Origin: Paraburkholderia sp. PGU19
GTDB lineage: Bacteria; Pseudomonadota; Gammaproteobacteria; Burkholderiales; Burkholderiaceae
Direction of reading: 5' to 3'
NCBI RefSeq assembly: GCF_013426915.1
Contig: NZ_AP023180.1
Span: 1,364,001 to 1,428,000 of the forward strand
DNA: 64,000 nucleotides
The notes beneath the pieces were generated by a model. The model was not told the origin of the DNA and did not search any database. It saw only the letters and a list, made by a program, of their open reading frames with translations. Each line of letters starts with the position of its first letter. Position 1 is the stretch's first letter. This document shows positions 24,033 through 49,107 of the stretch, piece after piece. Made by a program: the position numbers and the translations under genes.

Positions 24033-24430
24033 TTCGTTTGACTAGTTGATGCAGGACCGATGTGGAATGAAAGCCGGTTGCTCGGGCCGGCGCATGGGGA
24101 CGATATCCTGAGGCGGCTGTTTATCAGGTTTGTGTTACGGGTTCATGTTGGTCGCCAAATGAGTGCGATTGCCGCGACGTTCCTGGCGATCGGCAAGCGG
24201 GAATGCCATCCGCATGAAACCGGTTGCGTGCTCAAACATGCCCCGTTGCGCCACCAACCCCTGAGGCAACCTCACCGCTTTTCTGAACCCTCCACGGTCA
24301 GAGTTTCCGAACGACCGCCGTTCTTGAGTCAAGTTTCCCGATTTGGCAAACGTTTGCGGTTTGCATATCAAGTTCGACGCAATCCTGCCGACAAATCCGA
24401 AATAGCGTCAACGACTTCTGGGAGCAGCTC
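24033..24430. promoter_or_regulatory. Divergent intergenic region, no gene seen
   Basis: These 398 bases lie between the MgtC-family gene (minus) and the lipoprotein gene at 24431 (plus). It presumably carries both promoters and a long leader. I looked for magnesium-sensing leader features and saw none I could defend. Open frames inside have no gene-like start. Confidence 0.35.
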
Positions 24431-46961: not shown

Positions 46962-47762
46962 CTACTTGGCGAGCCGCAGCCCTTTGCCAATCACCGTGCC
47001 GTCTTTCTGGTTCACCAGCCAGATGGCATGAACGTTCGCGTGCAGTGTCGAGGTGCGGCGCGTGATGTCGGTGGGTTCTTCGTCGGTGGGATCGGTGTGC
47101 TCTCGCGTCTCCGTCAGATACGGCGATTCGAGCGTGCAGACCAGCACGATCGCAAAGTTGTTGTCGGCCTGCTCGAAGGCTGCTTGCGGGACGGTCAGAC
47201 GCCCGCGTGCCGTCGTCTTCGCCTTGCCTTCCGTCGCCAGTTCGATCGAATCGATCGTCTGGATAAAACCCTTGGCCTTCGCATCGGGCGCGATCACGAG
47301 GCCGCGCCCGCTCGGGCCGACGATGCTCTGGTAGAGCTGGATCGCGTCGGGATCGTCGTCGCTGGCAAGCGGCACGTTCACGCTCAGCACATGCGTATTC
47401 GAGCGATACAGAATGCCGTGCGGCGCCGGAATCATGAACAGGAAAGTGCGCTGCCCATTTTCGGCCGCCTCCGCATGACCGCGCACGATGCGGTCGTAGG
47501 GTTCGCGCGCGAACTTGCGGATGCGAGTGGTCAGCGAATCCGACGCGGCCGGGGGCATCTGGCTCGCGAGCATGTCGCGCACCTTGACGGGGTCGTCGGC
47601 GGTGAAGCGGTCAGGCGTTGCAGGGGTGCTTGCCTCATGCGCCACGTTGCCCGTGGGCGCGGCCGGCGTGGCGTTCGCCGCGCCGGCGCACAACGTCAGC
47701 GCAACACACAGCATTGGCAGCACGCGATTAGCCGAAGCAACCGTGCGATTCAGAAATTGCAC
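46962..47762 (-). CDS. Hypothetical exported protein (266 aa)
   Basis: I start this at the GTG at 47762, where GGAGAGGATGTT precedes it and the product begins with a signal (VLPMLCVALTLCAGAANA). The mature part has FAREPYDRIVRGHAEAAENG, RTFLFMIPAPHGILYRSNTH, SVNVPLASDDDPDAIQLYQS and GTVIGKGLRLAK. The pattern suggests a beta-rich secreted protein. I do not recognise the family. The open frame extends much further upstream but that part crosses a terminator hairpin and is not gene-like. It is downstream of the spherulin-4-like gene on the same strand but separated by that terminator. Confidence 0.7.
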   Translation of the reverse strand: MQFLNRTVASANRVLPMLCVALTLCAGAANATPAAPTGNVAHEASTPATPDRFTADDPVKVRDMLASQMPPAASDSLTTRIRKFAREPYDRIVRGHAEAAENGQRTFLFMIPAPHGILYRSNTHVLSVNVPLASDDDPDAIQLYQSIVGPSGRGLVIAPDAKAKGFIQTIDSIELATEGKAKTTARGRLTVPQAAFEQADNNFAIVLVCTLESPYLTETREHTDPTDEEPTDITRRTSTLHANVHAIWLVNQKDGTVIGKGLRLAK

Positions 47763-47894
47763 AACATCCTCTCCGTTGAAAACGGCGCTATCGATGCGCC
47801 TCGCTGCGTTAAACGCAGTCCATTTCAGCACGCATTCTAAGCGTATTCGATCGACGGGATATGGCATGCACGCGTTTGCCCGAATGGGTTGGCG

Positions 47895-47922
47895 AAAAAA
47901 AAGCCAGGCGCAAGCGCCTGGC
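47895..47922 (-). terminator. Terminator of the spherulin-4-like gene
   Basis: On the minus strand GCCAGGCG, loop CTTG, CGCCTGGC is followed by eight T (complement of A-run 47895-47902). It lies about 50 bases after the stop at 47972. A clear Rho-independent terminator that isolates this gene from the one downstream. Confidence 0.93.
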
Positions 47923-47971
47923 GTACATCGACATCGAACTGCACGGCGCGAAGCGCCTTCGTTCTTCTTGG

Positions 47972-48793
47972 TTATTTGATTGCGAGCACACTGCTCACCA
48001 GTTGGCTCCACCAGGTGGGCAGGTTCTTGTACGGATTCGGCAAGCCCGTTGATGTGACGAACACGCTGCCTGCGCCATGCATCGCCGCGTACGACACGAT
48101 GCCCGGCATCTGCGCCTCTGTCGCGCCGTACACGATGTGCACGAAACGCTTCGCCGGATAGTTGGCTTGCCACTTCGCCGCAGCGTAGTTTGCGTAGCGC
48201 TTCGCAGAATCTTCGAATACAACGAATTGATCGGCCGTGGGCAGGCTTGCGTAGAGTTCGGGGATGTTCGTGCCCGGATTGCCCATCACCGAATACGCGG
48301 ACGAAAGCCCTTTGATGTAGTTGTAGACCGACTGATAGAACTGGACATGCGACGTCACGCTGTCCGACGTCATCTCGTCGATGAAGAAGCCGTCGATCTT
48401 ATAGAGCGCGACATAGCGATTGATGTCCGTCACGACAGCCGACAACGAACGCTTCGCATACGATGTCGACACGTAGCCGATCACGCGGCCGCCTGCTGCA
48501 TGCACTTTCGCGATTGCCGCGATATACGTGGCGTCTGCATTCGTGCCGGGACCGCTGTTGGGATTCAGAATGACCGTGGTCGGCACTTTGGCCGCCGTCG
48601 TCGCGAGATCGTTCCAGTAACCGGCGCCCTTGCCGACGGGATCGAAATACGCGGGGACGGTCAGCGGCAGCACAGTTGCCGCATAAGCATTCGCATGAAC
48701 GGCAATGGCCAACGGCGCCACTGCAAGCAACGCCACACGTCGCAACCACTGAATAGCGCGAAACCCTGAAACGGGTGTGCGAGCGTTGAACAT
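47972..48793 (-). CDS. Spherulin-4/GH135-like secreted putative polysaccharide hydrolase
   Basis: The 273-residue protein has a signal peptide (about 1-39, ending HANAYA) and a TIM-barrel of the spherulation-specific family 4, which includes fungal Sph3 (GH135), an enzyme that cuts galactosamine-containing exopolysaccharide. Family motifs are VPAYFDPVGKGAGYWNDL, VILNPNSGPG, GGRVIGYVSTSYAKR, and IDGFFIDEMTS with acidic pair Asp139/Glu140, then FVVFED with Glu194. These acids fit the catalytic positions recalled for Sph3; that mapping needs alignment. AGGAGG lies seven bases before the ATG. The leader holds a GEMM-I c-di-GMP riboswitch, and a strong terminator ends the gene, so it is a single-gene regulated unit. 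Confidence 0.88.
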   Translation of the reverse strand: MFNARTPVSGFRAIQWLRRVALLAVAPLAIAVHANAYAATVLPLTVPAYFDPVGKGAGYWNDLATTAAKVPTTVILNPNSGPGTNADATYIAAIAKVHAAGGRVIGYVSTSYAKRSLSAVVTDINRYVALYKIDGFFIDEMTSDSVTSHVQFYQSVYNYIKGLSSAYSVMGNPGTNIPELYASLPTADQFVVFEDSAKRYANYAAAKWQANYPAKRFVHIVYGATEAQMPGIVSYAAMHGAGSVFVTSTGLPNPYKNLPTWWSQLVSSVLAIK

Positions 48794-48800
48794 CTCAATG

Positions 48801-48828
48801 CCTCCTGACGACGGTCTTTATCACCGTC
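48801..48828 (-). promoter_or_regulatory. Hairpin and ribosome-binding site after the riboswitch (expression platform)
   Basis: On the minus strand GACGGT (48828-48823) and ACCGTC (48815-48810) form a 6-bp hairpin with a 7-base loop, followed at once by CAGGAGG (RBS at 48806-48801). It sits between the aptamer and the start codon. There is no T-run, so control of translation is more likely than termination. Confidence 0.5.
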
Positions 48829-48856
48829 CATCGCTTGGCCCGCTGCGGATGCAGAG

Positions 48857-48930
48857 GGCAACTGGCTGACTCCTGCACGGAGTCCCTATAGCTTTGCGTC
48901 GCCGGATCGCTCCGGTTTTGCCTTTACGTG
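48857..48930 (-). promoter_or_regulatory. GEMM-I (cyclic di-GMP-I) riboswitch aptamer
   Basis: Read on the minus strand the segment has the conserved pieces in the right order: CACGTAAAGGCAAAACC (48930-48914), a CCGGA stem with GCGA tetraloop (GNRA) and TCCGG return (48915-48902), then GACGCAAAGC (48900-48891), TATAGG, a GACTCC/GGAGTC hairpin (48884-48868), and AGCCAGTTGCC (48867-48857). GGCAA near the 5' side can pair with TTGCC at the 3' end. These are the hallmark strings of c-di-GMP-I aptamers such as Vc2. It lies 64 bases before the start of the spherulin-4-like gene. The match is by eye against the remembered consensus. Confidence 0.9.
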
Positions 48931-49107
48931 TATATCGACGCCCAGTGGCCCTTCTTTAGGCTTTAATGCGGAATTTTTAATGGGGAAAGAATGCAGAGAT
49001 ATTCGATGATTTTGTGATCCTGATCGTTTTAACGTTTGCGAGTTGCAATAACGCGATTCGCAAACGTTGCCTTTCCCCTGTTCACGGCACCGTGCCCGTG
49101 AAAAAAA

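Follow-up and report, generated by a model that had tools for sequence, protein, structure and literature searches.

The window analysed here, a stretch of 64,000 nucleotides from Paraburkholderia sp. PGU19, carries on its minus strand a gene for a secreted glycoside hydrolase whose leader contains a c-di-GMP-I (GEMM-I) riboswitch aptamer. In the direction of transcription, the features of the locus are:

48932..48958, minus strand: sigma-28 (FliA)-like promoter, with a -35 TAAAG at 48954-48958, 14 nt, and a -10-like GTCGATAT at 48932-48939
48854..48932, minus strand: c-di-GMP-I (GEMM-I) riboswitch aptamer (RF01051, 54.5 bits, full model length)
48838..48859, minus strand: hairpin H1 (anti-aptamer), with pair-preserving changes across 44 leaders
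48807..48832, minus strand: hairpin H2, immediately 5' of the Shine-Dalgarno
48800..48806, minus strand: Shine-Dalgarno AGGAGGC, its GGC at 48802-48800
47972..48793, minus strand: secreted Spherulin4/GH135-type glycoside hydrolase, 273 aa (PF12138)
47895..47923, minus strand: intrinsic-terminator-like inverted repeat followed by 8 T, 3' of the gene (sequence read directly)

One Rfam match over cut-off was obtained by cmscan in the whole window, RF01051 at 48932-48854 on the minus strand, with a score of 54.5 bits (gathering score 35, E 7e-8, model positions 1-87 of 87). The first-pass annotation had claimed a GEMM-I aptamer at 48857-48930 and called for a covariance-model check; the match is the same element and it passes the gathering threshold. 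It is the single RF01051 match in the 11.2 Mb genome (150 of 805 first-look candidates scored). The letters at the places of G20, A47 and C92 (Vc2 numbering), which we take to be the ligand-contacting positions, read G, A and C both in the window and in each of the 44 leaders compared below, a count that is not independent as the search pattern itself demanded those letters. A chance match is ruled out by the RF01051 score and by the placement before the same gene across genomes. By its sequence the element is firmly established as a true c-di-GMP-I riboswitch aptamer, and it would be expected to bind c-di-GMP. The 5' arm of H1 uses the G, C and C of the aptamer 3' end (48859-48857), one of which we assign as C92, and its 3' arm terminates in a conserved GCC (48839-48837). 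Neither H1, with its overlap of the aptamer 3' end, nor the sigma-28-like promoter figured in the earlier description. An inverted repeat, AACGTTTGCGA ... TCGCAAACGTT, was also observed at 49031-49068, between the promoter and the end of the upstream gene, with one more half site at 24349.

The 273-aa open reading frame (47972-48793, minus strand) scored 160 bits against PF12138 (Spherulin4; cut-off 30.2), gave no match in NCBIfam, and begins with a signal-peptide-like stretch (residues ~1-39). The protein was found to have the Sph3 fold, its nearest solved relative being fungal Sph3. Residues D139, E140 and E194 align with the DE and E of Sph3, presumably its catalytic acidic residues D166, E167 and E222 (the residue correspondence being likewise our assumption), and are invariant in 28 sequences. 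The protein is thus firmly assigned from its sequence to the GH135-type hydrolases, with a predicted endo-alpha-1,4-N-acetylgalactosaminidase activity, and the spherulin-4/GH135 reading of the first-pass annotation holds on both family score and fold. The ribosome-binding-site hairpin and terminator that it had described are also present, as the hairpin at 48807-48832 before AGGAGG and as a G+C-rich inverted repeat with a T run at 47895-47923. The next downstream open reading frame (46962-47780, minus strand) encodes a secreted-looking protein of 272 aa with no Pfam or NCBIfam match.

Conservation of the aptamer-gene pair

Among 144 genomes of the genus, RF01051 gave 26 matches, of which 24 were over the cut-off, one per genome, and PF12138 gave 27. 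All 24 over-cut-off aptamers lie directly 5' of a Spherulin4 gene, which answers the proposal made earlier that other Paraburkholderia genomes be searched for the same leader. The longest downstream open reading frame begins 54-77 nt away in 22 of these 24 leaders; in L004 and L006 the start chosen was an in-frame ATG further upstream. The match at L025 (genome G142, 31.8 bits) is a degraded aptamer, after which tblastn recovered Spherulin4 fragments in two pieces (53-56% identity); in this genome the aptamer and the gene have decayed together and the pel operon (PelG) is still present. The match at L026 (G052, 31.3 bits), which lacks the conserved aptamer strings and is followed by no Spherulin4 gene, was rejected as a false positive. 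Spherulin4 proteins encoded in the genus with no aptamer are those of G003 (59% identical) and of G001 and G056 (26% identical, another subfamily).

In a sample of 398 genomes of the family, PF12138 was found in 42 and RF01051 in 34, and by coordinates the aptamer directly precedes a Spherulin4 gene in 33 of the 34 aptamer-bearing genomes. The exception, G160, carries two aptamers and no Spherulin4 gene; these aptamers (L084 and L205; 65.9 and 65.1 bits) come from another genus of the family and lie before other genes, that of L084 before the gene for a small secreted protein. No over-cut-off aptamer was found in nine of the 42 PF12138 genomes: G167, G262 and G473, where Spherulin4 is a distant protein, G288, G435, G439, G447, G474, and G243 (Caballeronia grimmiae, locus L116), where the aptamer is degenerate (24.9 bits) and has lost the P3 region. 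Intact Spherulin4 genes with no working aptamer were found in G003, G243/L116 (broken), G288 and Burkholderia sensu stricto. A class-wide draw of 274 genomes contained the gene in three only, the window's own genome included. Among the named genomes, the aptamer precedes the gene in 30 of 64 loci by motif search, and L145, which that search missed, has it by Rfam (43.6 bits). The pair was found in Paraburkholderia, Caballeronia, Robbsia and Ralstonia and in three Burkholderiales/Oxalobacteraceae records. Combined, these comparisons of sequences firmly establish the aptamer and the GH135 gene as a conserved unit. The first-pass annotation regarded the pairing as undescribed, and this agrees with the open-access literature, in which no report of an aptamer-Spherulin4 pairing was found (subscription journals lay mostly outside the scope).

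Promoter and predicted expression platform of the leader

The window promoter matches 11 of the 13 positions of TAAAG-N14-GCCGATAA, which we take to be the sigma-28 consensus, and 1 of 100 shuffled sequences was as good. In 30 of 31 leaders from Paraburkholderia, Caballeronia and Robbsia, a box of the TAAAG-N14/15-GCCG[AT]TA type stands 7-9 nt upstream of the aptamer core; in L003 the distance is 21 nt. The mean score of the box in these 31 leaders is 10.97 of 13, compared to 8.49 after shuffling (78 of 3100 shuffles reach it), and all 13 positions are matched in two loci. The sigma-28 box was not found in the 13 leaders from Ralstonia, Oxalobacteraceae-type genomes and the MAG L121 (8.38 versus 7.79 when shuffled; 574 of 1300), the test having been split into these two genus groups after inspection of the sequences. 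At L046 (G003) and L116 (Caballeronia grimmiae) the box is retained at 12 of 13 positions; as both loci have an intact Spherulin4 gene and a broken or absent aptamer with the promoter retained, they appear as cases of riboswitch loss.

The pattern was also compared with the FlgM and MCP promoters of the window's own genome. The exact form TAAAG-N13-15-GCCG[AT]TA, from which the window's own box deviates, occurs 20 times in this genome compared to 12 for the reversed control, and the genes after 6 of the 20 matches encode FlgM, three chemoreceptors and two HAMP proteins truncated at the locus edge. A CsgG-domain gene also lies 3' of an exact match (L224, G000 C1:2681468). The FlgM and chemoreceptor genes following the exact pattern mark the box as flagellar-type, and that FliA reads the box of the window, placing the gene under flagellar control, is a good and testable prediction from the sequence.

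The leaders compared for the expression platform numbered 44, 24 from the genus and 20 from named genomes, and are related to each other; L145 lay outside this set as the pattern missed it, and 11 named Paraburkholderia loci were excluded as likely repeats. All 44 have the same order: aptamer, H1 with its 5' arm over the last G, C and C of the aptamer, H2, and Shine-Dalgarno. H1 covaries, the third pair being C-G in 35 leaders, U-A in 4 and U-G in 4, and the sixth C-G in 29 and U-A in 8 (the row of L121 is misplaced in these counts). The last C of the conserved GGCC is unchanged even in the four leaders with A as its H1 partner, and the C that follows the Shine-Dalgarno shows no variation among the 44. 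For L121 the GCC anchor was misplaced, which leaves its pair probabilities (0.00) and its H1-count row not meaningful and its opening energies unaffected.

Folding was calculated from secondary-structure energies, without tertiary contacts or kinetics. In the free state of the window leader, C92 pairs with G in H1 with a probability of 0.99. Pairing of the GCC at 48839-48837 with the GGC at 48802-48800 has a probability of 0.00 in the free leader and 0.54 with the aptamer imposed; the two partners do not vary among the leaders and therefore offer no covariation in favour of the pair. Across the 44 leaders, forcing the bound aptamer carries a penalty of 1.6 to 9.4 kcal/mol, and opening of the Shine-Dalgarno becomes costlier in 43 of them, the average rising from 2.62 to 5.30 kcal/mol. 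The mean change of +2.68 kcal/mol compares with -0.11 for shuffled platforms, 23 of 352 shuffles reaching the value of their leader. With 3, 18 and 45 coding nt included the mean change is 3.33, 2.68 and 1.78, above zero in 43, 43 and 38 of the 44 leaders. For the window leader the corresponding changes are +2.66, +0.38 and +0.45; the effect is clear only with 3 coding nt and small with 18 or 45, where 4 of 8 shuffles reach it. A transcription terminator was rejected as the expression platform, no T run following H1 or H2 in the window leader. A translational OFF switch is thus a good, testable prediction of the folding model for the family as a whole; from the window's own leader sequence the modelled prediction is weak.

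The opposite direction appears unlikely to us: expression would then rise with c-di-GMP, and the hydrolase would trim Pel or assist in its synthesis while the biofilm grows, much as fungal Sph3 takes part in making galactosaminogalactan. Fungal Sph3 is reportedly required for galactosaminogalactan biosynthesis, to go by the title of Bamford's 2015 paper, and the weakness of the OFF effect in the window's own leader would also fit an ON switch. Both signs occur among GEMM-I switches, 1 of 12 in Clostridioides difficile going up with c-di-GMP (PMC3649979). However, across several genera folding favours OFF in 43 of the 44 leaders, against a shuffled control, a flagellar-type promoter suits the motile state, and neither leader hairpin is followed by a terminator-like T run.

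Association with Pel and the likely substrate

PelG (PF16933) was found in 60 of the 144 genus genomes, a few of the 60 being fragments (G034, G048). It is present in 24 of 24 genomes with the aptamer-Spherulin4 module compared to 36 of 120 others (Fisher p 2.7e-11, ancestry ignored). In the family sample, where PelG occurs in 146 of 398 genomes, it accompanies close Spherulin4 genes in 39 of 39 genomes compared to 107 of 359 others (Fisher p 2.6e-19, ancestry ignored) and distant ones in 0 of 3. Linkage was also observed. In 13 of the 24 genus module genomes, PelG and the aptamer are ~12.1-12.3 kb apart on opposite strands, the same head-to-head arrangement is seen in G142 with its decayed pair, and in Caballeronia G329 and G378 PelG is on the opposite strand ~11.7 kb off. 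In G027 it is on another contig than the module. At L118 pelA and pelB stand beside the Spherulin4 gene, and gene-by-gene annotation of L218 placed Spherulin4 divergent from pelA, B, C, D, E, F and G. Among the named loci, 15 of 64 have pel genes within 6 kb of Spherulin4; these pel-linked loci include Zoogloea, Paracidovorax/Acidovorax and a MAG, where the aptamer is absent. The window's own genome has two pel operons (L219 and L220), neither beside the window: PelG is ~465 kb away on the same contig and the second operon is on another contig.

The sequences thus make a strong case for a link between the Spherulin4 module and Pel. The co-occurrence might nevertheless be a by-product of shared ancestry or of large genomes, the substrate being another N-acetylgalactosamine polymer; the counts take no account of phylogeny, and distant Spherulin4 proteins occur with no PelG in G167, G262 and G473 of the family and in G001 and G056 of the genus. 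We consider this very unlikely, as shared ancestry with an unrelated function would not be expected to yield the head-to-head linkage in 13 Paraburkholderia genomes, in the decayed G142 and in Caballeronia G329 and G378, nor the gene-neighbour linkage seen in other genera.

Searches in the reverse direction were negative within their scope. Five 20-kb pel stretches contained no over-cut-off aptamer at the pel operons themselves, bar the three already known before Spherulin4, and no pel genes were detected by tblastn near other c-di-GMP-I aptamers (Zoogloea, Oxalobacteraceae-type and planctomycete; 16 loci, among which L197 and L202 carry Spherulin4). The RxxD motif in the GGDEF domain of PelD is kept in both pel operons of the window's genome and in L218, and since PelD keeps RxxD, Pel synthesis is probably stimulated by c-di-GMP. 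Other features of the pel operons were observed. The PelA of L218 (3984-6773) gave no Pfam hydrolase match and stretches of its hydrolase domain are missing, unlike the PelA of the own genome's second pel operon, which is canonical. Genes for GH114-domain proteins directly follow pelG at L218:17033-18205 and L220:7677-8612, giving pel operons with GH135 and GH114 enzymes at their flanks, as in the fungal galactosaminogalactan cluster. Such fungal clusters contain Sph3 plus the GH114 enzyme Ega3, and spherulin-4 genes are seen in some actinobacterial operons (PMC7229062).

The enzyme most probably acts on the Pel polysaccharide of the cell itself. The first-pass annotation had proposed an enzyme acting on an exopolysaccharide, perhaps in dispersal or in contact with fungi; pel co-occurrence and linkage favour own Pel and not the fungal part. 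An enzyme aimed outwards, at the galactosaminogalactan of fungi or at Pel made by competitors, would accord with fungal Sph3 being the nearest solved relative and with hosts from genera that include soil and plant-associated bacteria. It is distinctly unlikely in view of the 39 of 39 close genes that share their genome with PelG and of the pel linkage found even in relatives from Zoogloea and Paracidovorax/Acidovorax. For own Pel as the substrate, the known activities of Sph3 set a condition. Sph3 has alpha-1,4-N-acetylgalactosaminidase activity and breaks up the GalNAc-rich aggregates of Pel formed by Streptococcus intermedius (PMC12345266). With P. aeruginosa Pel, the Aspergillus enzyme is active on the re-N-acetylated polymer and inactive on the native one (PMC9135694), and P. 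aeruginosa Pel biofilms are not disrupted by it (PMC12345266). Because Aspergillus Sph3 is inactive on native P. aeruginosa Pel, either the local polymer must be GalNAc-rich or the window's enzyme must differ.

Proposed circuit and comparison with known systems

From the aptamer, the gene family and fold, the conserved pairing and the pel association established here, we infer ligand binding, an OFF direction, sigma-28 use, Pel as substrate and a role in dispersal. We lean slightly towards the resulting model, in which a c-di-GMP-I riboswitch behind a sigma-28-like promoter turns off translation of an Sph3-like hydrolase that acts on the cell's own Pel in dispersal. In the Paraburkholderia, Caballeronia and Robbsia lineage, transcription would start at the flagellar sigma-28-like promoter. 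At low c-di-GMP, H1 would take the aptamer 3' end and hold the conserved GCC, leaving the Shine-Dalgarno open for translation of the hydrolase. With c-di-GMP high, the bound ligand would keep the aptamer 3' end, the outer pairs of H1 would be lost and the freed GCC would pair with the GGC of the Shine-Dalgarno, stopping translation; PelD would then drive Pel synthesis with the hydrolase silenced. The folding model and the flagellar-type promoter both point to expression at low c-di-GMP, and motile, low-c-di-GMP cells would synthesise the hydrolase and escape from their own biofilm. The more specific proposal of a two-lock circuit, in which transcription of a Pel-cutting GH135 enzyme goes with the flagellar regulon and its translation requires an empty riboswitch, so that c-di-GMP acts in opposite directions on Pel synthesis and destruction, is tentative and falls a little short of an even chance.

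Biofilm research has yet to settle how cells leave the matrix that they built. If the circuit is true, Paraburkholderia, Caballeronia, Robbsia and Ralstonia would possess a compact dispersal switch, GEMM-I riboswitches would gain a defined role in Burkholderiaceae and GH135 would gain a bacterial substrate. A true two-lock circuit would also be, to our knowledge, the first riboswitch-controlled enzyme directed against a biofilm exopolysaccharide.

With respect to known systems, the window aptamer resembles other RF01051 riboswitches in being a full-length covariance-model match over the curated cut-off; its platform (H1, H2 and the GCC-GGC pair) and its GH135 target gene were not found described in the open-access literature. 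Compared with Aspergillus Sph3 (GH135), the window protein is bacterial and 26-28% identical, and its family is pel-associated and under a c-di-GMP riboswitch whereas Sph3 belongs to a fungal galactosaminogalactan cluster. PelA_H of Gram-positive pel operons (BCE_5582) is likewise a free-standing hydrolase encoded head-to-head with pel; however, it resembles the PelA hydrolase domain, whereas the hydrolase described here is Spherulin4/GH135, Gram-negative and equipped with a riboswitch, and the words 'riboswitch' and 'spherulin' are absent from the text of the PelA_H paper (PMC7112168). Deletion of the hydrolase divergent from the pel operon raised biofilm in B. cereus (PMC7112168, PMC12345266). 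The closest precedent is ZmpI/CD2831 of Clostridioides difficile. A c-di-GMP-I riboswitch of the OFF type controls this secreted protease, which releases cells when c-di-GMP is low (PMC4591827, PMC3649979); it is a secreted cutting enzyme regulated in the opposite direction to its target (PMC4591827). That system employs a protease, a protein adhesin and transcription termination (PMC3649979), whereas the circuit proposed here would pair a glycoside hydrolase with a polysaccharide and, according to the model, act on translation; if the circuit is true, it would be a Gram-negative, polysaccharide-based counterpart of the C. difficile adhesin-release switch.
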